Below the pieces are notes generated by a model. The model saw only the letters and a program-made list of their open reading frames with translations, ran no database searches and was not told where the DNA came from. This document shows positions 1-57,596 of a DNA stretch of 57,596 nt, in pieces. Position 1 is the first letter of the stretch. Every line of letters starts with the position of its first letter. The stretch is from a virus. A program made the translations under genes and the position numbers. The stretch spans positions 1 through 57,596 of the IMG/VR virus record IMGVR_UViG_3300042444_000372; one strand, 5' to 3'.

Positions 1-307
1 TCTACCACGTAGACGAATTATTCTACCTGTTGTAGTGGACTTGTAAGGAACGTCGAATACTTCTTCTTGAGCTACGTAGTTGTGTTTCTCAGTTGAGTAG
101 TACTTGTTGTAGTGTGGTACTAGGATACATGCTTGCTTTACAAGCATTGGGTCCATAGAAGATTTTTGATAAAACTTCAGTAATTGCGTAATTACTTGTG
201 ATGTTGTTTTGTTTTGTGCTGTGTACTCTAAGGCTTTGTGGAATATTGTGCCGAAGTCCATTGCGTCTTTACGATCAGAAGGACGTAACCCTTCTACTGT
301 TGCGACA
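1..307. repeat. Terminal direct repeat, left copy
   Basis: Bases 1-307 match 57290-57596 with four differences (positions 100, 163, 172, 250), all transitions. This is the overlap expected when a circular or circularly permuted genome is assembled as a linear contig. The unit length would then be 57289 bp. All four differences are silent in the RecB-like gene that covers the repeat, which suggests real strain variation rather than random error. Confidence 0.93.
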
Positions 308-2462: not shown

Positions 2463-2829
2463 CAGTTCTGTTCCATATTTGAATTGCTTCTTCTAAAGTC
2501 ACTTGTTGCTTTCCTAGTCTCTCATTGATTTCATTGTGCAACCAAACCCCCCACCTGAAGTAGTTTTCTGGAGAAGAGAAATCAGGGGGATTTTGTTTCT
2601 TGAGTTTAACATAATGTTCATTACAAAGACAATCAGTTTTTGGAATTGTCAGTTCCCATAATGAATGCCAAACTGGGTCGCATCCTAAGTACGTATGTTT
2701 TTCTTTCCAAGCTGCTCTACCTTGAATAGCCGTATGATCTACGTAAGGCTGTATTGGGAGTTCAGTAGGGATGTACTCTGAAGTTGGCGGTACGTGTACT
2801 AAGCGGAACAAAGGATGTTCAATGACCAT
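2449..2829 (-). CDS. Possible Erv1/Alr-like thiol oxidase fold protein
   Basis: 126 residues. A DPVWHSLWEL segment, a CLC...H pair and then WGVWLHNEINERLGK resemble the W-H ... HNxxN FAD-binding helix of Erv/Alr sulfhydryl oxidases. The usual active-site CxxC is not evident (only CxC), so the assignment is tentative. The gene overlaps the end of the Cys-rich protein at 2799-4061 by 31 bp, which gives a thiol oxidase an obvious partner. A copy of the interspersed CTGGAG motif, flanked by C/G-rich inverted arms, lies inside at 2547-2590. Confidence 0.6.
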   Translation of the reverse strand: MVIEHPLFRLVHVPPTSEYIPTELPIQPYVDHTAIQGRAAWKEKHTYLGCDPVWHSLWELTIPKTDCLCNEHYVKLKKQNPPDFSSPENYFRWGVWLHNEINERLGKQQVTLEEAIQIWNRTDVTA

Positions 2830-5631: not shown

Positions 5632-5651
5632 ATGCAATGTGGAATTTATTA
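5632..5651 (-). promoter_or_regulatory. Promoter-like element P1
   Basis: Copy of the 20-bp family (read leftward TAATAAATTCCACATTGCAT, then AGAGGTAC and a GTG start). The TAA of the portal stop codon is its first three bases. It lies directly before the gene at 4064-5620. Confidence 0.6.
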
Positions 5652-14275: not shown

Positions 14276-14290
14276 CGGTCGGTAACTAAT

Positions 14291-23975: not shown

Positions 23976-25028
23976 TTATAAAAGTGGTACAGAATCAGGT
24001 AGATCGATTTCACCTACTGCTTGGACAGTTACAGCTTTTCGAGAGTACCATCTTGATACTTCTTCAACTGGTATGTTGTAGATGATGTTAGCTCCCCAAG
24101 ACTCGTTTGAAAGTCTTACATAGACTTTACTATCTGATGCAGTAAAATACCCTTGGAAACTCATGCAATGCCCCCATGAGTCTCTTGGGTTTTGTGCGTG
24201 GATGGGAAACCCGTCTTTGTGTGTTCCGATCTTATGGATAGCAATACCAGAGCAAACTGACATTGGTTTGAACTGTTTATGTAATGCAAGATGGGAATCG
24301 ATATCGGTTACTCTTGGAGACTCTAGCAACCTAAAATCCGTAAATGGTAAAAGAGTATCTAGGAATTCCCAGTTTTGGAATCTTCGATACACACTGTTGT
24401 TTTGAGGTTCTGGAAAATCTTGATCTCCAACAGCATTAAGCTTACTTAGAATCTCTAAGAGTTTACCATTGTTGCAAAGAATAACCCCATCTTTGATAAG
24501 TGACTCATACTGAACTTCACACCAAGATCCATCATTGCGTTCAGTGTTACCTTTGAGGTTTCCTCTACGCCGACCACAACCGTAGCTAAAAGGTGCGTAG
24601 AAAGATAAGTTGTTAGTACTGAACTCGTTACGGCCTAGTAGTTCTTCAGCATCACCTTTTACAATTACTTCGAACAATGCTCTACGTGTCCAAGGTCTAA
24701 ACGTATTAGATACAACACAAGAACCTGTCTTCTGTGGTAGCCATTGAAGACGTTTGCCGTAGATCATTTCATCGATCAATGTTATATCGTAAGAATCAGG
24801 ACCGTAGTTTTTCGAGTCATGAAGTCTACGAAGACGGTCCATCATTGGGTTGCTGACTTCAACAGATTCTCTAGCTCGATATGCTACGGGCATATCTGAA
24901 GCTAGCTTATCGAATAACCTGGATTCGTGATCGTGGCGTTTATCGATTGGAGTGTTATTGTCGTCACCCCAACCCATAGGACCACGTACTAAATGAATAT
25001 CTGAGTCTGGAACTGTTTGGTTAGTCAC
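23976..25028 (-). CDS. Papain-like cysteine peptidase, lysin candidate
   Basis: 350 residues. Papain-fold signature in order: Q99-KTGSC104 (oxyanion Gln and nucleophile), SWGHC with H287, and N308-ESWG. The C1-like enzymes of this type cleave peptides. In a phage lysis group this could attack peptidoglycan cross-links or cell-wall protein. No separate muramidase or amidase was seen. The two membrane proteins downstream fit. It could instead be a virion-associated peptidase. Confidence 0.7.
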   Translation of the reverse strand: MTNQTVPDSDIHLVRGPMGWGDDNNTPIDKRHDHESRLFDKLASDMPVAYRARESVEVSNPMMDRLRRLHDSKNYGPDSYDITLIDEMIYGKRLQWLPQKTGSCVVSNTFRPWTRRALFEVIVKGDAEELLGRNEFSTNNLSFYAPFSYGCGRRRGNLKGNTERNDGSWCEVQYESLIKDGVILCNNGKLLEILSKLNAVGDQDFPEPQNNSVYRRFQNWEFLDTLLPFTDFRLLESPRVTDIDSHLALHKQFKPMSVCSGIAIHKIGTHKDGFPIHAQNPRDSWGHCMSFQGYFTASDSKVYVRLSNESWGANIIYNIPVEEVSRWYSRKAVTVQAVGEIDLPDSVPLL

Positions 25029-25030
25029 GA

Positions 25031-25768
25031 TTAGTTCTCCAAGCCGGTTGCTATTGCTGCGAGGTACAGAACATAGTCCATTCTAGATAGCGGCCATCTT
25101 GAACGTAGGTCTGCATTTAGGTTTTCAAACAGTATGGAATACTTTGCACTATCCGCACCAAGTAGCTTGGCTTTCGAGTCAGTAATCAACGTGGTAGCGT
25201 CATTAATAGTAGCTATTGGGGAATCTGTCAAGAGTTTTGCGGCTTGTCGATACAAGGCTCCAAGCTCTTTTCGTTTTTCCAAGGATTTTGACCAGTCTTG
25301 TGTACGTTTGCCAATGTTGTTGAATTGGTCATTTGGAACGGTATTTGGATTAGGTGAAGGTCCTGGGTTTGGTGTGGGTGGAGCAACGTCACCTAAGTCT
25401 ACTACCAAAGTTTTTTCATCGATGCCGAGTTCTGGATCAAAGACAGTTACATCTATTGCATACTTACCACTACCAAGTAAGATGTACTCAGTTTCAGATA
25501 GTTTGATAGTTACGGTACTTTCAAACAAGTTCTGTTTAGCCCGTACTTTGATAAACTTGTAATTGGTATTTACAGTTATGAACGCTGCCGGTTGAAACTC
25601 TGGTTTGCTTCCTTCGTTGTCAAACACTACAAAGCTTTGGATAACTTTCGGGTTCTTTACTCCAGAAAGTACTTGTGTCTTAGTTACTGTAACTTCTAAA
25701 TCTGCGATAGCTAATTGATTCAGCATTGCAGAGAGTAATATAGCAGTTGTAAATAGCCGATAGAACAT
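25031..25768 (-). CDS. Secreted protein with Pro/Asn linker (host-like)
   Basis: 245 residues. N-terminal signal peptide (~1-22, FTTAILLSAMLNQLAIA). A beta domain to ~125, a Pro/Asn/Gly linker near 130-142 (PTPNPGPSPNPN), then a helical region. The composition is typical of planctomycete secreted hypotheticals and unlike the rest of the structural arm. It lies between terL and the peptidase, so it may act outside the membrane during lysis or surface attachment. Function unknown. Confidence 0.65.
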   Translation of the reverse strand: MFYRLFTTAILLSAMLNQLAIADLEVTVTKTQVLSGVKNPKVIQSFVVFDNEGSKPEFQPAAFITVNTNYKFIKVRAKQNLFESTVTIKLSETEYILLGSGKYAIDVTVFDPELGIDEKTLVVDLGDVAPPTPNPGPSPNPNTVPNDQFNNIGKRTQDWSKSLEKRKELGALYRQAAKLLTDSPIATINDATTLITDSKAKLLGADSAKYSILFENLNADLRSRWPLSRMDYVLYLAAIATGLEN

Positions 25769-25778
25769 AACTAAATCC

Positions 25779-27329
25779 TTAGAAGTAGAAGCCTGATTGA
25801 TTAAATGATTTCGGGTAGTTAAGGTTCATTTGAAGTAGCTGTGGATTGTAAGCGTTTAATGACTCTGCCGACACAGAGTTAGCTTGGAACATAGGGTCTT
25901 GATTCTGTCCTTCCCACGTTACATCATTACACGCATCCGAGAGCGTGTCAACAATGTCGTCAGTCATTCCTGGATGCCCTGTCCAAGTAAACACTTCGTC
26001 CATACACTCTTTTAACCATACAGCTTCTTCAGGTAAGTAAATACGATGATTACGCATCCTAAGCTGAGCGTTCAAAGAGTTTTGGATTTTGTCTTTAGAC
26101 TTTGGATTAGGTACTACATTAAGACCAAAGTTAGCTGCTAACTGAGCTGGACCAATACCAAGACCGTTTGTTTCCATTTTTACGTACTGAGGTTTCCAGA
26201 CTTTGTAGATATCACGTAATACCTTAACGCATTCTGGAATTTCATCACGTAGACGTTTCATGTAAAGCCATAGCAACTTGTAGTCATGAGTAAGACCCCA
26301 TACAGAGTAAACCGTATAAGACATACCTTTCTTGGTTGTTGTTTGATCTATGACTCCTTCTTTTACAGTTGCAGCAGAGTCAGCAGTCATGAACACTTTC
26401 TTCAAGTCTTTGTAATGAAGACCTATATCATTAATAACGAAGTAGTCACCTTTAGACTTGTAGAACCTAATATCACGTATCCTAAAACGAGAATCTGGAG
26501 AAGCATCCCAATCTCCATGTTCTAGTTGTAGCTTACGTACTTCGTCTAGTTCTTGTAGAGACTGACGATACGATCTTTGATCTATGTACTCATTATCTCG
26601 TAACGACGAAGGAACGAATGGTTTGTTTGGATTACGACCAACCCAACGAACTCGTTTAGATATTGCTTTAGTTTCATGGTCAACTGAATCATAAAGTTCT
26701 TTTTCAATTTGATACCTATTTTTTATCCAGAGGTGTCCTGGACCACCTGGGTTACAAGACATTCTAAATCTGATAGGAATGGACTTATACATTTGACAAA
26801 CACTACAGCTATCTACGTAATTAGGAATCATATCCTCACTTTTAGGGTCTTTTTTCAATTTGTGCTTAGGGCATACCTTTTTACGTAAACGTGAAAATAG
26901 GTATCTAGGAGCTTGATCGTTTTCAAAGTGACCAGCTTCATCAATAGCTACAAATTGAAACTCTGCCCCTTGGTAGCGTTCTTCTACTCGGTAATCGCCT
27001 AGATACCCGAACTGAAGTTTTGCATAAGGACCGGGTGTACCGTCAGGCCAAGTGGTGTCAAATTGATACGTATGCTCGTCTGGAGAATAGTGAGCACCTT
27101 TAGCGCCTTTTAACCATTGAGAAGCTCTATCTAGTAGTGCTTCGTTTTGTTTAAGCTCTACTAGAGTTCGACGAAGAATCAAAGCAGAGTACCCAGGGGT
27201 ATCTGCGAACTGTAAAGCACCCATCAAAAGAACGTCTGATTTACCAATTGCCCCCTGCCGACCCTTCCCTATTTCTGGAGAGAAGAGAAAAAGCAGGGGG
27301 CTAAACGCCTCCCCCTGCTGCCCCACCAA
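25779..27329 (-). CDS. terL: Terminase large subunit, main ORF (5' end interrupted)
   Basis: This frame supplies everything after the Walker A lysine: KSDVLLM-GALQFAD, PGYSALILRRT, Walker B with FVAIDEAGHF, and RNase-H nuclease acids at MTADSAA, VKMETNG and DDIVDTLSDA. The product packages and cuts DNA. The TTG start of this frame (27327-27329) gives a nonsense N-terminus. The true N-terminus is in a different frame (27301-27420). Removing 64 bp at 27243-27306 restores a normal 525-residue protein with the P-loop GGAAGGGKS. See the entry for the interruption. Confidence 0.85.
   Translation of the reverse strand: MVGQQGEAFSPLLFLFSPEIGKGRQGAIGKSDVLLMGALQFADTPGYSALILRRTLVELKQNEALLDRASQWLKGAKGAHYSPDEHTYQFDTTWPDGTPGPYAKLQFGYLGDYRVEERYQGAEFQFVAIDEAGHFENDQAPRYLFSRLRKKVCPKHKLKKDPKSEDMIPNYVDSCSVCQMYKSIPIRFRMSCNPGGPGHLWIKNRYQIEKELYDSVDHETKAISKRVRWVGRNPNKPFVPSSLRDNEYIDQRSYRQSLQELDEVRKLQLEHGDWDASPDSRFRIRDIRFYKSKGDYFVINDIGLHYKDLKKVFMTADSAATVKEGVIDQTTTKKGMSYTVYSVWGLTHDYKLLWLYMKRLRDEIPECVKVLRDIYKVWKPQYVKMETNGLGIGPAQLAANFGLNVVPNPKSKDKIQNSLNAQLRMRNHRIYLPEEAVWLKECMDEVFTWTGHPGMTDDIVDTLSDACNDVTWEGQNQDPMFQANSVSAESLNAYNPQLLQMNLNYPKSFNQSGFYF
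27243..27306 (-). other. 64-bp interruption in terL Walker A codons
   Basis: Read leftward, exon-like part one ends GGGGGAGGC, then GTTTAG (in-frame stop), and normal reading resumes at GGTAAATCAGAC. The 64 bases (ambiguous by 1-2 bases at the edges) contain 9-bp inverted arms (gccccctgc 27250-27258; gcagggggc 27293-27301) flanking a CTGGAGAGAAGAGAAA motif copy (27272-27292). Another hairpin pairs GCAGGGGG of the gene with CCCCCTGC of the insert. Possible explanations are programmed bypassing (takeoff GGC, landing GGT, both read by one Gly tRNA), a -1 frameshift, a mutation or an assembly fault. Confidence 0.7.
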
Positions 27330-27420
27330 ACATTGCGTCTAAGTGAGGGAGCAGGAGGAATTGTAGCTGAGTGGCAAACGGCTTGTGAGGAATGTACTGG
27401 GAGCACCAGGGGATTCTCAT
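27301..27420 (-). CDS. Terminase large subunit, N-terminal fragment
   Basis: 39 codons, ATG 27418-27420, stop TAG 27301-27303. Sequence YIPHKPFATQLQFLLLP then MFGGAAGGG matches the N-terminus of terminases that continue directly KSD. Promoter-like P3 is just upstream and an AGAGG ribosome site precedes the ATG. It makes no sense alone and should be joined to the downstream ORF. Confidence 0.75.
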   Translation of the reverse strand: MRIPWCSQYIPHKPFATQLQFLLLPHLDAMFGGAAGGGV

Positions 27421-27430
27421 TAGTACCTCT

Positions 27431-27450
27431 ATGCAATGTGAAATTTATTA
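27431..27450 (-). promoter_or_regulatory. Promoter-like element P3 before terL
   Basis: Leftward TAATAAATTTCACATTGCAT, followed by AGAGGTACTA and the terL ATG. Its TAA is the stop of the RuvC-like gene. Same spacing to the start codon as P1. Confidence 0.6.
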
Positions 27451-27921
27451 TTTGAAGTGAAGTCTACATGCTTCACAGATTAGTACCGAGTCTGCTGTAA
27501 CTGGACTTAGGTTAGGTGCTTTAGTTACTCTGGAAGCTAGGACAAGCATTTTGTCTTTATCGTTACCAGGAGCATTAGCTAGCTTCTTCCACTGAACCGG
27601 AGTCGGATACCAAAAGGAAGTTACACCTTTAGCGTGTAACATGCCTTTTATCAATCCAAAGTTCTCATGCAAGGAAGCAATAGCTTTAGTACCTTTGCTA
27701 AACAGCATAGGTCTTTCGATTGTAACAAAACATTCAGACTTACTGCATAGATCAGAAATTAAATCGAGCATTTCGTCTTCAAGAATAGTACGTTGTTTTG
27801 TTTCGTCGTTATGACGTTTGAAGAAAGGATAGATAGCCCAATAAGGCTTTGATCCAGGTAACTTTGATTGTACGGTGATAGCACCTTTTTGACCTAAATC
27901 GATACCTATGTAACGAATCAT
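27448..27921 (-). CDS. RuvC-like Holliday junction resolvase
   Basis: 157 residues with an RNase-H-fold signature: YIGIDLGQKGA (first catalytic Asp, D8), CFVTIERPM (Glu) and TADSVLICEACRLHF (terminal Asp). Single-domain length fits phage RuvC-like resolvases, which cut branched DNA before packaging. It sits directly upstream of terL, in the packaging group. Overlaps the Rmf-like gene end by 4 bp. Confidence 0.8.
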   Translation of the reverse strand: MIRYIGIDLGQKGAITVQSKLPGSKPYWAIYPFFKRHNDETKQRTILEDEMLDLISDLCSKSECFVTIERPMLFSKGTKAIASLHENFGLIKGMLHAKGVTSFWYPTPVQWKKLANAPGNDKDKMLVLASRVTKAPNLSPVTADSVLICEACRLHFK

Positions 27922-28115
27922 GGAAATTTAATTCCGTATTTACTGAAAGTGTCCTTGTGTCTACGTACTAAGTAGTTTTGGTAGTACCCGTCAAACCATG
28001 CTTTGCGTTCATCGGGTCTTTTGTCATAACGATCTGGACAGTTTGACGGTTTACCGTTTTGTTCGGCTCTTTTACCGGCATCAAAAGCTTTTCGAACTTC
28101 GTCTGGCTTTGACAT
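27918..28115 (-). CDS. Rmf-like small protein
   Basis: 65 residues. The pattern AFDAGKRAEQNGKP ... CPDR ... DERKAWFDGYYQ resembles ribosome modulation factor family domains (AxxxGxxAxxxG, C-P-Y/D, WxxGW). Bacterial Rmf dimerises ribosomes; phage members of this fold exist, some with unrelated roles. Lies between a small unknown gene and RuvC. Function not provable here. Confidence 0.6.
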   Translation of the reverse strand: MSKPDEVRKAFDAGKRAEQNGKPSNCPDRYDKRPDERKAWFDGYYQNYLVRRHKDTFSKYGIKFP

Positions 28116-28121
28116 GGTTTG

Positions 28122-28427
28122 TTAGTCTGGTTTGTGGATCATAGCATCGTAGCAATCTCCAACTAGCTTGGTCAAAATCAAAGCGTTATCAATTTCGCTT
28201 TGAGCTAGTTGGAGTTTACGAGCCATGATCGATACGTTTCCATGATTGTCGAGTATCTTTGTCATGAAGACAGAAAAAGCTTGTAGTTGCATTTTTTGTC
28301 GCATAGTAGTTGACTCAGAAGAAAACGCTGTTGAGTCAAACTCTGGTTTGGATTCAAGGTCCGAGTCTTGGAGCATTGTAGCTACTGACTTGACTTCAGG
28401 GGTGTTCTTATTTCTTTGGCTCATCAA
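28122..28427 (-). CDS. Hypothetical helical protein
   Basis: 101 residues. The C-terminal half (NHGNVSIMARKLQLAQSEIDNAL) resembles a DNA-binding helix-turn-helix. The N-terminus is Ser/Glu-rich. Overlaps the terminase small subunit stop by 20 bp. Could be a packaging cofactor or regulator. No family recognised. Confidence 0.6.
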   Translation of the reverse strand: MMSQRNKNTPEVKSVATMLQDSDLESKPEFDSTAFSSESTTMRQKMQLQAFSVFMTKILDNHGNVSIMARKLQLAQSEIDNALILTKLVGDCYDAMIHKPD

Positions 28428-29076
28428 AGTTCCTTTGTAATTGGAGTGCTTGGTCTAGTTCCATAGCTTTTTGAGCTAATGGACCGGGTAAAGCTGGTGC
28501 AGTATGATTGATACCATGCTTTTCTAAGATGTCAATCGGTTTTTCTTGCCTGTCAACCTTGATTGACAGTAAATCCTTATCGAATATTTCGTTAAGATCG
28601 CAACCTTGTTCACGTAGCCTACGCATAGCAGTTATAAAATCAGTAGTAACGTCAAGAGTCTCTTTAGTTGTTCTGCTACCTTCAGAAGACTCTTCGCTCC
28701 AGTCATCGCCTAGCATTCTAGCCGGACCACGTGTTAGAAAAAACTTAGGGTCTACTTGAGCTACCTTAGACTCAGCTAATCCTTTGGCTACTGCCCAACC
28801 TTTAGCTAAATGTTTCCATAAAATCACTTCAGGCATATAAGGACTGTCTTCTTCTTGCTCCTTACCTCTCTTTACCCAGGTTATGAAACGCTGAGCAGGG
28901 ATTCCTAGTGCTGCTGCTATAGCCGACATAGAGAAACCTACTGAGGCCATTTCTTTAGACTTTTCCATAGCGATGAAGTCAGCCAAAAATAGCTCTACAT
29001 CAGTTAAATCTTTAGTAGGTGCTGGAAGATTTTCGTCTATTTCAATGCCTGGTTTTTTCGTTCGTTTTTTTGTCAT
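28408..29076 (-). CDS. terS: Terminase small subunit
   Basis: 222 residues from ATG 29074-29076 (the longer frame start is rejected because it lies within the control element P4). Helix-turn-helix MSAIAAALGIPAQRFITWVKRG near 60-80 and the later VDPKFFLTRGPARMLGDDW resemble small terminase families that pick the packaging site. First gene of the leftward structural arm. Confidence 0.72.
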   Translation of the reverse strand: MTKKRTKKPGIEIDENLPAPTKDLTDVELFLADFIAMEKSKEMASVGFSMSAIAAALGIPAQRFITWVKRGKEQEEDSPYMPEVILWKHLAKGWAVAKGLAESKVAQVDPKFFLTRGPARMLGDDWSEESSEGSRTTKETLDVTTDFITAMRRLREQGCDLNEIFDKDLLSIKVDRQEKPIDILEKHGINHTAPALPGPLAQKAMELDQALQLQRNFDEPKK

Positions 29077-29083
29077 TTGAAAG

Positions 29084-29103
29084 TAATAAATTCCGCATTG
29101 CAT
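29084..29103 (+). promoter_or_regulatory. Promoter-like element P4, rightward
   Basis: TAATAAATTCCGCATTGCAT, perfect consensus, oriented toward the rightward operon (csrA starts 248 bp away) although it lies between terS start and the control region. Confidence 0.55.
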
Positions 29104-29542: not shown

Positions 29543-29900
29543 GAACGTTGCTCTTGTTGGTGCATCTACTACTGTAAACTTGTTGCTAAGTTTTACTTTT
29601 GACTACGAAAGAATCCAAGTATTTTACGATGAATCGGATAATGTCGATCAAGTAGTACTGGTTAATGCAACTAACAAGGTTGGGGTTCACCCGTACAAAC
29701 GTGGATGTAAGTTCAGAGAAATCAGACTAACAAAAGACGGGCTAGTAACCTTAGTCAACAGCAAACAAACTATCACACGAAGACTCGCATTATCATTTTA
29801 TTCTTACTTACCTCCAGAAACAGGGGTGCAGGGGAATGCCAAAGAAAGCTACAAAGATCGTTACGACAAAGAAGATCAAAGTCAAAAAGAAGATTGTTAA
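29535..29900 (+). CDS. Hypothetical protein
   Basis: 121 residues. Starts 8 bp before the csrA stop. The first ~95 residues are a beta-rich domain. The last ~22 are charged and overlap the start of the zinc mini-protein, so the real stop region may be compressed. Contains a reversed copy of the interspersed motif at 29796-29821 (CCTCCAGAAAC). No family recognised. Confidence 0.65.
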   Translation: MSRNVALVGASTTVNLLLSFTFDYERIQVFYDESDNVDQVVLVNATNKVGVHPYKRGCKFREIRLTKDGLVTLVNSKQTITRRLALSFYSYLPPETGVQGNAKESYKDRYDKEDQSQKEDC

Positions 29901-29991: not shown

Positions 29992-31082
29992 GTAATTCAA
30001 AGAAGTTCAAAGTAGGTTGCCCAGTTAAAATAGTTGGTACAGTACATAATGGTGTACAAGGTAAGATTATTAGAGTACTACCTGTTGGTAGTAAAAGTTA
30101 CGTTGTAGCCTCTGCAAAAGATGGTAGTACTGCATTGCAGTACGTAGGTACATTCAATAAGTCGAATTTAGAGCATAATCCTCTACCTTGTAATGGTGTA
30201 AAGCAGTCACCAAGTAGTACACAATACGAAGTTGACGATGCAGTACGATTCATCGCACCTAACCATAAGTATTTTGGAATTGAAGGTCGCATAAAAACGT
30301 ATGATGGTGACACTTGCTACTTTCATTCGAATGATGGAAGGACTAAGTTCTGGTGCTCACCAACTTCACTTGAAAGAGTACAGCTTTTTGTAAAAGGTGA
30401 TCCAGTTATAATAAAACAAGGCACACCATTGAGTGGTAGAAAAGGTGTTGTACTAGGTCTGTTGGCAGGTTCGTATGCCGCAAATTTAACAAAGTATCAT
30501 GTACAAATAAAGTCAGATACTCGTACAAAACCTGATGCAATTCGTATTGTAGATTCTAATATGTTAGACTTTGATAAGGAAGTAATTGATTCACTAAACA
30601 AAGAGTTTACACCTGTAAACAATCTAAGTGATCTAAGTGAAGATGCGTTCTACGATGTTTGGGACGAAATGCCACCAAAAGCACCTAAGACTGATGCAGT
30701 AAAGCTTTGTGGAACGCATAACGTACCAATCAAAGATGCAGGGCTACAAACGCATATCGAAGCTAGGTTCGATTGTCTTGACCCAAGTGTAATGAAGCTA
30801 TTAGCTGAATGCCGTGGCTTTGGTGTAAGTAAGTATGGGGTAGACAGTCATAAGAAGATACCAGTAGCAGATCATTTGAACCACGCGATCAATCATATTA
30901 ATGAACACCGTAGAGGTAATGACACTGAAATGCACTTAGTAAATGCAATGTGCAGATTACTCTTTGCGATATCTGGGGTATTCGAGATCGGGTACTATGA
31001 AGATACGTACTGGCATCCAGATATGGGATCGAAGAATTCGGACAAACTACCTAACCCTGTTTCTGGAGAAAAGAAAAAATGA
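29988..31082 (+). CDS. KOW-repeat/DUF5664 fusion protein
   Basis: 364 residues from ATG 29988 (the upstream in-frame start 29955 lies inside the zinc protein). Three KOW-like beta modules (VGCPVKIVGTVHNGVQGKI near 7; APNHKYFGIEGRI near 83; FVKGDPVIIKQG near 135) precede a C-terminal domain with ARFDCLDPSVMKLLAE, FGVSKYG, VADHLNHAINHINEHRRGND and HLVNAMCRLLFAIS, which matches the dATP/dGTP diphosphohydrolase N-terminal domain (DUF5664). KOW modules bind RNA polymerase or nucleic acid; the C-terminal part may act on dNTPs. Confidence 0.72.
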   Translation: MSNSKKFKVGCPVKIVGTVHNGVQGKIIRVLPVGSKSYVVASAKDGSTALQYVGTFNKSNLEHNPLPCNGVKQSPSSTQYEVDDAVRFIAPNHKYFGIEGRIKTYDGDTCYFHSNDGRTKFWCSPTSLERVQLFVKGDPVIIKQGTPLSGRKGVVLGLLAGSYAANLTKYHVQIKSDTRTKPDAIRIVDSNMLDFDKEVIDSLNKEFTPVNNLSDLSEDAFYDVWDEMPPKAPKTDAVKLCGTHNVPIKDAGLQTHIEARFDCLDPSVMKLLAECRGFGVSKYGVDSHKKIPVADHLNHAINHINEHRRGNDTEMHLVNAMCRLLFAISGVFEIGYYEDTYWHPDMGSKNSDKLPNPVSGEKKK

Positions 31083-33531: not shown

Positions 33532-33563
33532 TTCTTTCTTCTTACTCCAGAAACATTGAAGAT

Positions 33564-37627: not shown

Positions 37628-38079
37628 GATAAGTACTGGAGTGGGGAACCTGGTCCTAATGATAGCGGTCTGTCTTTGGTACGTTTACAGTGGCATATCT
37701 GGGTGTTGTCACCATAGGTAACGCCATGCCAGTAGTAGCCTTCAAATACGAACCAACAATCGTATCTGACCCCTGCTATGTTGTGTCTACCAGTTGAAGT
37801 GTGACATATGAACTCAAGTGTTCCGGGCCAGTTGGATACTTTACCGGCACTAGGTCTTCCAATTGGTGTCTTAGCTTTGCTTGCTGGTTCACAAGTCAGG
37901 TAGAGTGTGATCTTACCATCTTGCCTCATACGTTCTTTGTCGAGAACTGCACAACAGCTATAACAGATTCGATTGTTGTCTTTGTCGAGTCCGTACCCTG
38001 AACTGATACTTTCTGGAGAAGAGAAAATATCCTTGTTGCATCGAGTACACGTTGCTACTTTAACTGTCATTGGTAACAT
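37624..38079 (-). CDS. Zinc-binding small hypothetical protein
   Basis: 151 residues, or 148 from the ATG at 38068-38070. N-terminal CTRC and CYSCC pairs make a likely zinc site. CTGGAG motif copy at 38010-38028 (DIFSSPES). Unrecognised. Confidence 0.6.
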   Translation of the reverse strand: MLPMTVKVATCTRCNKDIFSSPESISSGYGLDKDNNRICYSCCAVLDKERMRQDGKITLYLTCEPASKAKTPIGRPSAGKVSNWPGTLEFICHTSTGRHNIAGVRYDCWFVFEGYYWHGVTYGDNTQICHCKRTKDRPLSLGPGSPLQYLS

Positions 38080-46911: not shown

Positions 46912-46956
46912 ACTAAACTCTCCCTGTTATTTTTCTGGAGGATGAAAAGAAACTTA

Positions 46957-52653: not shown

Positions 52654-54669
52654 CTAGTTATTTCTCCAATCTTGAAGCTTCATTGCTTCGCTCCAATTGT
52701 CTTCGATAATTTCTGGTTTACACACACAAGGTACTCCATAGTAGTTACCAGCTTCTTGCATAATAGAAGCTAAGTCACTTAACACTTTAGTAACTCTTTC
52801 CCTACCGAGTTTTTTCTGGAGAGAGAAAAGTAATTCATCGTGTACTTGTAGGATCAATGCGACCTTACTCTTGTACACGATATTTGAATAGTCAAAGCTT
52901 AATAATCGATTGTCGATTAGGTATCTATCGCAGTTGGTTAGGGCAGTCTTTACGATTTCTCCTTCGGTTCCTTGAACGATGTAGTTGACTCCTGCATAGG
53001 CTTTGCTCTTGTACATATAGAGTCTGTAGCCACCCATTGTTTCGACGTATCCGTACTGTTTGACGAAGGACACGGTTCTATTGATCGATTCCGTAACACA
53101 AGGAAATAATGCTTGTACTCTTCGAAAGATTCCCTTGATTCCGCATGTTGCATCGATCTTTCGTTCACCCGCTCCGAATATGTATCCGAAGTTGACATTC
53201 TTAGCTACCCTTCGTTGTATCTTTGTTGGTTCGGCAGTTTCAAAGATTTGCATAGCCATGTAGGTATGGAAATCGAAACCGTCTTGGAATGCTTTAATCA
53301 GTTTGGGGTCTTTTGACCAATAGGCAAAGATTCTAAGCTGTAGTTGATCGTAGTCAATACTAGACCATACACGATCCTTAGTTGGTCCGAAGACTTTTCG
53401 GATTGAGTACGTGCTAATGACGTTTCCGTTTTCGTCTATGCGTTCTTTGCCCTTGCTGATGTTTTGACCGTTAGGGTTTTCTGAAGATAGTCTAGTGGTT
53501 GATGTTCCAGCTTGCTTGATGTTGGGTAGTAGTAGCTCTGCTTCGTAAGTACCTTTTTTGGTTTTGAAACGTCGATAGGATTGTAGATAACCGTTAGCTG
53601 CATTGACTTCTCTGTATGAAATCATGAAGTCTACAAACTGTAAAGCTTTCTTTGATTTCTTTTGTAGCTTGAGTTCTGGAAGTACACTCTTGTCTGTGGA
53701 ATCATTACCTGCATCAGTCATCTTGACTGACTCAAACTTTAAGTCTGTGAATAACGCTTTTGATAGCTGTGGTTGACTATTGGGATTAAAGTCTGTGTTG
53801 CCTAGTAGTGACTGCATCTTGTCTATAAGATCGTTTCTTACTTTGGATGCTTCATCTACTGCTTTAGGAAAGTGCTCTTTGTGAATCGAAATACCGCACT
53901 TAGTCATACGGTACAACGGCATGATTACACGATGTTGTTCATCATGAGCGTTTAGTAAGTTTGGATTTACTTCGAATGTCTGTTCTTGTCGTATGAACAA
54001 AAGGGCTGTACGTATAGCGTCTTTGATTGCGTAGGTACTGCATACTGTGTGGTATGGATGGTTACTTGGATACTCAAAGTGTTCTGCATACGCTTTTGGC
54101 AACCAGAAGTCGCACTTGTGAAATAGGTTTTTCTGACCTGCGAGTTCTGTAACCCCTTCTGCTGCTAGCTTCCAACCCATACTTTTAAGTTCAGATTTTC
54201 TACGAAGTGACTTTACACAGTCATCGAGTTCTTTTTCATCGTCATCAGCTATGTCGCAGTAAATCTTAGCTTGATGTTTTAGTGCTAATAAATCACTAGA
54301 GTCTATAACGTGTGCTCTTATCAACGTATCGTAATACGCGAATGTATTCTCCATTTCTACTGGAAACGAGTTCCATTCTGGAAGAGGGAGAAGAGACAAC
54401 ATGAACAAGTCGAAGTTCAAATTGTGAAATACTAAAGTGTTGAAAGACGTTACGTACTTGTAAATTTTAGTCAGTACGTCTTTAGACCATTTTGGTGTAC
54501 GTGTTAGTGGATCAACTGGGGCTTCCCAGTAGTTAGTTACTCCGTTGTTATCACACGTAGATACTGCAAAAGCTCTACAACCATGATGACCAAACAAGCC
54601 TGTTGCTTCTGTGTCTATTGCTAAGAATTTAGTGGCTGGTTTGTACTTTTTTACTTTTGATAGGATCAT
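52654..54669 (-). CDS. DNA polymerase, family A
   Basis: 671 residues from ATG 54667-54669 (MILSKVKKYK); a longer frame start lies in the terminator. Exonuclease acids D19/E21 in LAIDTEATG, exonuclease II NLNFDLFML, then polymerase motif A SIDYDQLQLRIF, motif B RRVAKNVNFGYIFG and motif C LQVHDELLF. Replicative polymerase. In motif A the usual Glu of xLELRx is Gln (QLQLR), a steric-gate change. A CTGGAG motif copy directly follows motif C (52811-52831). Confidence 0.88.
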   Translation of the reverse strand: MILSKVKKYKPATKFLAIDTEATGLFGHHGCRAFAVSTCDNNGVTNYWEAPVDPLTRTPKWSKDVLTKIYKYVTSFNTLVFHNLNFDLFMLSLLPLPEWNSFPVEMENTFAYYDTLIRAHVIDSSDLLALKHQAKIYCDIADDDEKELDDCVKSLRRKSELKSMGWKLAAEGVTELAGQKNLFHKCDFWLPKAYAEHFEYPSNHPYHTVCSTYAIKDAIRTALLFIRQEQTFEVNPNLLNAHDEQHRVIMPLYRMTKCGISIHKEHFPKAVDEASKVRNDLIDKMQSLLGNTDFNPNSQPQLSKALFTDLKFESVKMTDAGNDSTDKSVLPELKLQKKSKKALQFVDFMISYREVNAANGYLQSYRRFKTKKGTYEAELLLPNIKQAGTSTTRLSSENPNGQNISKGKERIDENGNVISTYSIRKVFGPTKDRVWSSIDYDQLQLRIFAYWSKDPKLIKAFQDGFDFHTYMAMQIFETAEPTKIQRRVAKNVNFGYIFGAGERKIDATCGIKGIFRRVQALFPCVTESINRTVSFVKQYGYVETMGGYRLYMYKSKAYAGVNYIVQGTEGEIVKTALTNCDRYLIDNRLLSFDYSNIVYKSKVALILQVHDELLFSLQKKLGRERVTKVLSDLASIMQEAGNYYGVPCVCKPEIIEDNWSEAMKLQDWRNN

Positions 54670-56641: not shown

Positions 56642-57596
56642 CTATTTTTTAGATAGTTTTTTCTTAGGGTTTTTTTGGCTTTTTGATTGGCCTTGCTCTC
56701 CCTGTAGTTCTGGGAAGCACGTTTCTATCTGCTCTAATCCTAATTTGGACCCGCTTGTTACGTAGTCGAAGTAGTCGCCTACGCCTAAAGTCATTGGATC
56801 GTATATTCCGAACGGTGTTTGGAAGTGGTGAGGATTTGGTTTTCCCTGCTCGTCCACCCAGGGATTGAACGGGTCCGATTTAATGGACTCCCACCATACT
56901 ACTACGCTTTCGATCATTGGAACCAATGTTCGATGGTAGAAGTTACTAATGTCCGATGGGCCTAGCTCTATTTCGTATCGTTTGAAATAGTGTGACATTT
57001 CGTTGTTAGCTAGAGAGTTATCAACGTCTGCCGCTATCTCACTGTTTATACGTTGTAGGAATTCGTTGTCAGACTCTTTTTGTTTCTGTTTTTGACCTGG
57101 ACGACGAATAACATTGTATAGGATACCTCCAATCTTTCGACCGGGATAATCGTGTGTCATTGAGTAAGCATAGAGCATGGTTTGAAGATCGAACGGAAGA
57201 GTAGCTATGATTCTGTTTTCGTCAATAGTAGTCTTGGTTTTGTTCTCTTGTAACCACAATGCTTTTTTACGTTCAAACATTTCGTCTCTTCTACCACGTA
57301 GACGAATTATTCTACCTGTTGTAGTGGACTTGTAAGGAACGTCGAATACTTCTTCTTGAGCTACGTAGTTGTGTTTCTCAGTTGAGTAATACTTGTTGTA
57401 GTGTGGTACTAGGATACATGCTTGCTTTACAAGCATTGGGTCCATAGAAGACTTTTGATAGAACTTCAGTAATTGCGTAATTACTTGTGATGTTGTTTTG
57501 TTTTGTGCTGTGTACTCTAAGGCTTTGTGGAATATTGTACCGAAGTCCATTGCGTCTTTACGATCAGAAGGACGTAACCCTTCTACTGTTGCGACA
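56642..57596 (-). CDS. RecB-like PD-(D/E)XK nuclease, C-terminal and central part (cut by window edge)
   Basis: Continues the gene at 1-405 across the circle; together 350 residues. Catalytic signature: motif II GRRD (D137), ExK with E150-N-K152, and QxxxY (Q171, Y175), plus G52xxxH56 near the N-terminus. This is the RecB/Cas4-like nuclease order, and the length suits a free-standing exonuclease. It follows an 88-bp gap after the Sak4-like gene. Pairing with the ATPase and SSB suggests recombination-dependent replication. Confidence 0.85.
   Translation of the reverse strand, partial: VATVEGLRPSDRKDAMDFGTIFHKALEYTAQNKTTSQVITQLLKFYQKSSMDPMLVKQACILVPHYNKYYSTEKHNYVAQEEVFDVPYKSTTTGRIIRLRGRRDEMFERKKALWLQENKTKTTIDENRIIATLPFDLQTMLYAYSMTHDYPGRKIGGILYNVIRRPGQKQKQKESDNEFLQRINSEIAADVDNSLANNEMSHYFKRYEIELGPSDISNFYHRTLVPMIESVVVWWESIKSDPFNPWVDEQGKPNPHHFQTPFGIYDPMTLGVGDYFDYVTSGSKLGLEQIETCFPELQGEQGQSKSQKNPKKKLSKK
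57290..57596. repeat. Terminal direct repeat, right copy
   Basis: Matches 1-307 with four silent transitions. The repeat ends at the same base at both sides of the contig, as expected for an assembled circle or terminally redundant molecule. Confidence 0.93.

Follow-up and report, generated by a model that had tools for sequence, protein, structure and literature searches.

From the comparisons described here, we propose that terL, the terminase gene of this virus and its close relatives, is expressed by programmed translational bypassing, a reading to which we assign a probability of roughly three in four. If so, the case would be a new form of programmed bypassing. In the window, the whole stretch of 57,596 nucleotides analysed here, terL lies on the minus strand as two open reading frames (ORFs). 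ORF1 runs from an ATG (27420-27418) through 38 codons (27307-27420), a number kept in all 6 genomes of the family (the window and the loci L002 to L006), and by eye a ribosome-binding-site-like GAGGT can be spotted upstream of it. It reads MRIPWCSQYIPHKPFATQLQFLLLPHLDAMFGGAAGGG, reaches the take-off codon GGC (27307-27309; GGC in 6/6), which is the final glycine ahead of the P-loop lysine, and then ends at GUU UAG (27301-27306; the stop is UAA in L003, L004 and L006). A non-coding gap of 61 nt (27246-27306), opening with this GUU UAG, leads to the landing codon GGU (27243-27245; GGC in L004 and L006), and ORF2 (25779-27242; 487 codons plus stop, with AAA as resume codon) picks up at GKSDVLLM. 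The assignment of ORF2 to terL is based on a match to the terminase family phrog_979 (E 3e-42, from residue 29 of P0001); a match to Terminase_6C (E 3e-4) falls just under the family cut-off. Joined through the shared glycine, the two ORFs would give the P-loop GGAAGGGKS, as in many uninterrupted relatives, and at the level of sequence this out-of-frame pair jointly encodes one conserved protein. The original prediction had described a 64-bp insert (27243-27306) splitting the terminase Walker A motif; it is as described, and consists of the 61-nt gap plus the landing codon. Reading does resume at GKSDVLLM as had been stated, but in the +1 frame of ORF1, not the -1 frame. GGC is combined with GGU in 4 of the 6 genomes and with GGC in 2, and one tRNA-Gly would be expected to read both GGY codons. 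In 6/6 genomes the stop does not lie directly 3' of take-off but one codon further on. Five neighbouring ORFs (23976-29103) match no Pfam family, so no homing endonuclease is recognised near the gap at this level of search. The 300-nt ends of the window (1-300 and 57290-57589) are near-identical (99%); the contig therefore probably covers the whole genome, the ends being a terminal repeat or a circular overlap.

A search of IMG/VR with ORF2 gave seven loci: two distant ones (L007 and L008) and five close relatives, with identities of 99% (L002), 78% (L003), 77% (L004), 84% (L005) and 89% (L006). Close relatives were checked for a missing insert; all five carry the gap, and at the same P-loop position. 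Throughout the family it starts with GGCGUUUA(A/G), in the variants GUUUAG or GUUUAAG, and ends with CAAN(U/A) followed by GGU or GGC. Its length is 61, 61, 61, 64, 58 and 64 nt in the window and L002 to L006, respectively. All six lengths are 1 modulo 3, for which the only explanations we can offer are chance (about 1 in 27, given three further independent lengths) or a past constraint on the frame. Frame 0 is shut at the second codon after take-off in every genome. The resuming frame meets UAG stops inside the gap in L004, L005 and L006 and no stop there in the window, L002 and L003; being closed in three of six genomes, it does not make translation through the gap the family's shared solution. 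The residues GGAAGGG and GKSDVLL that flank the gap are kept while their codons differ synonymously from genome to genome, and dN is 0.02-0.16 in both ORFs with dS at least 0.57 or saturated and not computable (NG86, the pair of window and L002 left out); by this measure, purifying selection acts on both halves of terL. Within codons 33-38, take-off included, 5 of 6 are identical across the six genomes, compared with 45 of the 328 invariant-residue codons of ORF2. Long collinear DNA matches also run among the family genomes. The window and its five relatives (one of them a 17.7-kb fragment) each have one terL, and no second copy was found, so that the contrary outcome envisaged earlier, a pseudogene-like terL beside a second intact copy, did not come true. 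When genome_contigs were searched with the TerL alignment, 131 stretches matched and 0 were confirmed as relatives; an extra locus from the take-off pattern scan, L011, was dropped for having no similarity to the window.

The outgroups carry the gene without the break. The P-loop is uninterrupted in the nearest of them, L032 (57% over the best segment), and terL as a whole is uninterrupted in L033 (45%) and in the distant loci L007 and L008. From about 600 on, terL of L032 shows an intein-like insertion, at a site other than the P-loop. The ORF1 peptide is conserved in the family, and the uninterrupted L032 has a similar N-terminus, which weakens the idea that this peptide is a nascent-peptide signal specific to the element. 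A FastTree phylogeny with 122 rows of TerL places the window family, represented by 5 rows because L002 is almost a duplicate, in a single starred clade; L032 branches off outside this clade, and L033 further out. To account for the broken and the whole genes, the tree requires a minimum of 14 changes of state, 10 of them forced by starred branches, in a biased sample and with gains and losses not separable. The TerL of psiM100, ScarletRaider, CRP-738, ArV1, faecal scaffold MT836159 and a Criblamydia plasmid entered the tree as contiguous, one frame holding the P-loop in each.

The gap can fold into a hairpin (27250-27301) with outer arms at 27301-27292 and 27259-27250 and inner arms at 27287-27279 and 27270-27262. 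Inverted arms had been predicted in the insert and are present, with 10 bp rather than 9 in the outer pair. Folded alone, the window insert reaches -33.7 kcal/mol (z -5.5), a stability matched by 0 of 200 shuffles, and the inserts of L003, L004 and L005 give z values of -5.2, -4.4 and -4.0; the z values for lone inserts cover these four, those of L002 and L006 being folded only with their flanks. The outer helix consists of 10 standard pairs in all six sequences, and a run of pairs as long occurred in 0-7 of 20000 base shuffles. Pairs 6, 7 and 9 vary on one side. Pair 8 is G-C in two sequences and A-U in four, and pair 10 is U-G, G-C, G-U or U-A, so that the covariation rests on two pairs altered on both sides in six sequences, which are few. 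A G-run, GCAGGGGGC (27250-27258), stands 4 nt ahead of the landing codon, a position that by inspection would suit a Shine-Dalgarno-like element; GGGGGC ends 4 nt 5' of the landing codon in 6/6 genomes, and the same stretch is a hairpin arm. A competing hairpin at the take-off site (27293-27318) is possible, GCAGGGGG (27318-27311) pairing with CCCCCUGC (27300-27293) and GGC GUU UAG standing in the loop. This part of the original prediction holds for the window, where the fold is strong (-17.8 kcal/mol, z -1.8), but not for L003 to L006, where the best take-off fold is weaker, does not beat shuffled sequences and uses another register that takes in GGC itself (-9.3 to -12.4, z -0.5 to +0.3). 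In all 5 sequences folded, the most stable structure is some G-run/C-run take-off hairpin, at z values (-1.8 to +0.3) that lend it no firm statistical backing. In 5 of 6 long folds (not in that of L005), GACGC in ORF1 pairs with GCGUU at the beginning of the gap, in columns that hardly vary.

In the apical part of the gap hairpin lies the motif CTCCAGAAA (27272-27280, minus strand), which is also scattered through the genome. The interspersed motif of the original prediction is enriched: allowing up to 3 mismatches it has 8 matches, where 0.37 would be expected. With a pyrimidine tract in front, and at some sites AGGG behind, CTCCAGAAA has 9 copies in the window (2565-2573, 25660-25668, 27272-27280, 29812-29820, 31060-31068, 33545-33553, 38010-38018, 46932-46940 and 52813-52821) and 6-8 copies in each of four long relatives, at sites between genes and within genes of either orientation. 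A 20-nt repeat, ATGCAATGNGGAATTTATTA, is found at 5632, 14256, 27431, 29265, 36469, 40634, 45557, 47436 and 55652, with inverted copies at 14290, 25712 and 29083. One copy sits just upstream of terL, and the repeat looks like a phage promoter family.

In the proposed bypassing, the ribosome would read 38 codons to GGC and pause there, with GUU, UAG and a strong hairpin ahead. Peptidyl-tRNA-Gly would then release and the ribosome would skip the 61-nt gap (we infer both the hop and its efficiency), after which the peptidyl-tRNA would re-pair at GGU or GGC and decoding would continue at AAA. This would yield a single terminase of 525 residues whose P-loop is the normal GGAAGGGKS. The gap hairpin could bring take-off and landing sites together or provoke the pause, and its G-rich 3' arm may serve as an internal Shine-Dalgarno sequence just before landing. 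This codon may be favoured because glycine codons re-pair strongly and because the P-loop codons just before it are G-rich, much like a Shine-Dalgarno sequence. Since the P-loop can be an intein target, as in the locus L079 described below, an insert that permits a hop could protect the gene; regulating the dose of terminase would be another option for its purpose. Bypassing was already the preferred reading in the original prediction, and the GGC take-off, GGY landing, nearby stop and hairpin are all in keeping with it. It also draws support from the uninterrupted outgroups, the conserved layout, the purifying selection on both halves, the closed frames, the covariation in the hairpin, the recurrence of breaks at the same codon elsewhere and the occurrence of such a break in a virion-producing phage, vB_MoxS-R1. 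Against it stand the 1-modulo-3 lengths, which a hop does not require, the frame left open through the gap in the window, L002 and L003, a stop that is not next to take-off, a very stable hairpin in the gap and a gap length that both depart from T4, and a take-off hairpin weakly supported both in this family and in the second hairpin family (L287 and L272) described below.

In favour of a +1 (or -2) frameshift at GGC GUU UAG, with the gap translated into about 20 extra P-loop residues, are the 1-modulo-3 gap lengths and the fact that the frame this calls for is open in the window, L002 and L003. The same frame runs into UAG stops in L004, L005 and L006, the extra residues would disrupt GxxxxGKS, and the hairpin covaries while the peptide it would encode differs among members. 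We therefore regard a frameshift as improbable; the earlier ranking of it below bypassing agrees with an insert frame closed in 3/6 genomes. Removal of the gap from the mRNA, as a very small intron or a bulge-helix-bulge-like element, is in our estimate barely more probable than that. A terminal hairpin with preserved ends would suit such an element, and the TerL relatives include archaeal viruses, but an Rfam search over 26900-27700 gave only two matches far below gathering scores, no 3-nt/4-bp/3-nt bulge-helix-bulge was seen at the junction by hand, and the breaks of 1-6 nt with a stop at the same site elsewhere would not be naturally explained.

It could also be that terL is simply broken, as a pseudogene or in a defective phage, or that it works as two separate polypeptides: there are two ORFs, and the ATPase would be inactive with its P-loop cut by a stop. 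The low dN against high dS in both ORFs and the long collinear DNA matches speak against this. So do the lack of any ATG, GTG or TTG between the resuming-frame stop and GKS in the three closed-frame genomes, and the same kind of break in the virion-producing phage vB_MoxS-R1; we judge this explanation unlikely, to about the degree of the frameshift. An assembly or sequencing error would be conceivable for single metagenomic contigs, and the original prediction had listed it among the alternatives. With six contigs having the gap at one site with differing gap sequences, five close loci sharing the site with differing lengths or sequences, 15/15 identical dinucleotides in the control class described below, and one sequenced induced phage with a break, its probability is in our view negligible. 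Hopping of peptidyl-tRNA-Gly remains the simplest account of gaps that range from 1 to 64 nt, occur in any frame and have a stop close to take-off.

Breaks at the same Gly|Lys junction were also found in TerL genes beyond the family, the codons on the two sides of a stop being identical or nearly so. A wider search kept 80 of 211 matched loci, 5 of which are the window family, and the P-loop is uninterrupted in 72 of the other 75. L060 and L061 read GGT GGT TAG GTAAG, and their contigs are 100% identical over 3270 nt and hence probably one virus. L079 has, by eye, an intein-like sequence at about 1270-1500 that ends with VPTHN right before SDALLM; this TerL thus probably harbours an intein at its P-loop. 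Scanning for GGAAGGG with a stop-like TRR immediately behind it, and again with one codon in between, returned at least 120 and at least 119 stretches, which were filtered with an HMM of 70 TerL. With TRR directly after, at least 27 rows have a TerL broken at this glycine; with TRR one codon later, L287, L272 and the window-family contig L315 are among the matches listed. Because these rows were picked by their stop, they are by themselves no proof that the stop is needed. Three of the at least 27 (L109, L166 and L175) seem to reflect a shift by one nucleotide and not a hop. In L160 and L206 terL has another break, shortly before the P-loop in the former and further down in the latter, so both genes may be damaged. 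Near-copies are L153/L162/L212, L110/L211 and L183/L192.

A control scan of viral contigs left the two gap bases free, with G(A/S)AGGG required before them and GGN AAR plus a Ser/Thr-like start after them; it thus covers a 2-nt gap with a GGN landing codon. It returned 28 rows, of which 15, from about eight tree groups and including both contigs of one virus, are TerL with ORFs on both sides. In 15/15 of these the two bases are TA, giving UAG directly after the glycine, and the other 13 rows have other dinucleotides and no terminase ORF. With a slightly wider TA pattern, 15/15 rows from viral contigs are TerL, and 1 of 22 rows from genome_contigs is such a TerL (L356, a Syntrophomonadaceae MAG).

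Among the matches listed we tabulated 31 short-gap sequences, leaving out L109, L166 and L175 and the copies L061, L162, L192, L211 and L212; their proportions carry the bias of the patterns, a stop directly after take-off having been a selection criterion. Their gaps are 1-6 nt long, and 24 of 31 are not divisible by three. Take-off is at GGU in 17, GGC in 11, GGA in 3 and GGG in none, compared with GGG at the last glycine in 17/66 uninterrupted relatives. The stop is UAG in 20, UGA in 8 and UAA in 3. Landing is at GGN in 21 and at AGY or CGA in 10. The landing position is an invariant glycine in uninterrupted genes, and drift to AGY thus fits a codon that is not decoded; alternatively, serine is inserted and the P-loop altered. 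L287 (4329-4372) and L272 (139-183) form a second hairpin-gap family on another TerL branch, with a window-like layout of GGU GCU UAG (UGG and a later stop in L272), a C-run hairpin and AGY AAA. Their gap hairpins have z values of -4.4 and -3.9, and their G-run/C-run take-off hairpins, again the best folds at that site, do not exceed shuffled sequences in stability (z -0.2 and -0.3). The gaps of 38 and 39 nt show that this family follows no modulo-3 rule. Taken together, breaks at the P-loop Gly|Lys are probably a recurrent class at one ATPase motif, seen in a sample that is not unbiased and comes mostly from patterns chosen for a P-loop stop.

Two cases in isolated phages are in print. The inducible Microbacterium phage vB_MoxS-R1 (MW073100) resembles the window in having terL in two ORFs broken at the same Gly|Lys: gp44 ends RPRGWG at GGT TAG, and gp45 carries KSP after AGC (GGT - T - AGC AAG TCT at RPRGWG|KSP). 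Its gap is of 1 nt and its landing codon AGC, unlike the window. The authors of its description (PMC9030533) propose a -1 frameshift, as an untested suggestion. VWB, SF1 and xhp1 read RPRGWGKSP without interruption. In Streptomyces phage phiHau3 (JX182369), as we read the record, the terminase is likewise broken at the glycine before a P-loop-like lysine (AAG GGT TGG GGC - TTACTCC - GGT AAG GAC), but across a 7-nt gap led by the sense codon UUA; a review (PMC5009743) regards bypassing as likely there and ties it to UUA usage in Streptomyces. The P-loop was uninterrupted in all twelve other named viruses inspected, which are, besides VWB, SF1 and xhp1, the Rhizobium phages RHph_TM3_3_3 and RHph_N28_2, Methanoculleus virus L4768, PMBT14, Bhz20, SOI901, HTVC033P, Tlacuache and HTVC103P; it was also uninterrupted in two faecal scaffolds. 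Gordonia phage Nyceirae was set aside, its split lying by annotation between the ATPase and nuclease parts and not at the P-loop. In the literature searched, with most subscription journals outside it, we found no general account of P-loop breaks in terL.

T4 gene 60, as described in PMC5009743 and PMC11194080, shares with the window an early take-off (after 46 residues against 38), a glycine take-off, a nearby stop, a glycine landing, structured mRNA and a place in a phage gene. Its 50-nt gap is largely unfolded according to PMC11194080, whereas the 61 nt of the window form one strong hairpin; its UAG directly follows take-off, whereas GUU intervenes in the window; and its product is part of a topoisomerase rather than a terminase. 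The same paper, PMC11194080, has the processivity of T4 sliding fall sharply past 56 nt, and the window gap is longer. Short non-coding blocks skipped in translation are also known from Magnusiomyces mitochondria, where the review (PMC5009743) counts 81 bypassed sites in the mitochondrial genome and ties them to relaxed mitochondrial decoding; the window differs in having one conserved site in a phage gene.

We tentatively suggest, with somewhat more doubt than belief, that in many tailed phages a stop and a hop have arisen time and again, and independently, at the P-loop glycine of TerL, such that the packaging motor would come only from ribosomes that hop. Counterparts of the T4 case have long been presumed to exist, and no natural occurrence of hopping over an in-frame stop was known as of 2016, according to that year's review (PMC5009743). 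If the suggestion is true, it would be the first case of stop-hopping in wide natural use among viruses, with gaps from 1-6 nt up to hairpin-bridged ones of 38-64 nt, and a supposedly very rare trick of translation would look recurrent. The hairpin-gap family and the short in-frame and out-of-frame breaks at one motif provide natural variants for testing the requirements of bypassing, and the inducible vB_MoxS-R1 makes the protein junction directly testable. Because terL is a widely used phage marker, it matters that such genes appear as two ORFs, as with gp44 and gp45 of vB_MoxS-R1. For the phages themselves, the break would possibly be a dose or timing switch for packaging, or possibly shield the P-loop DNA from inteins and homing endonucleases, and in the window family a phage factor might control the hop by way of the hairpin-loop motif, of which further copies are spread over the genome.
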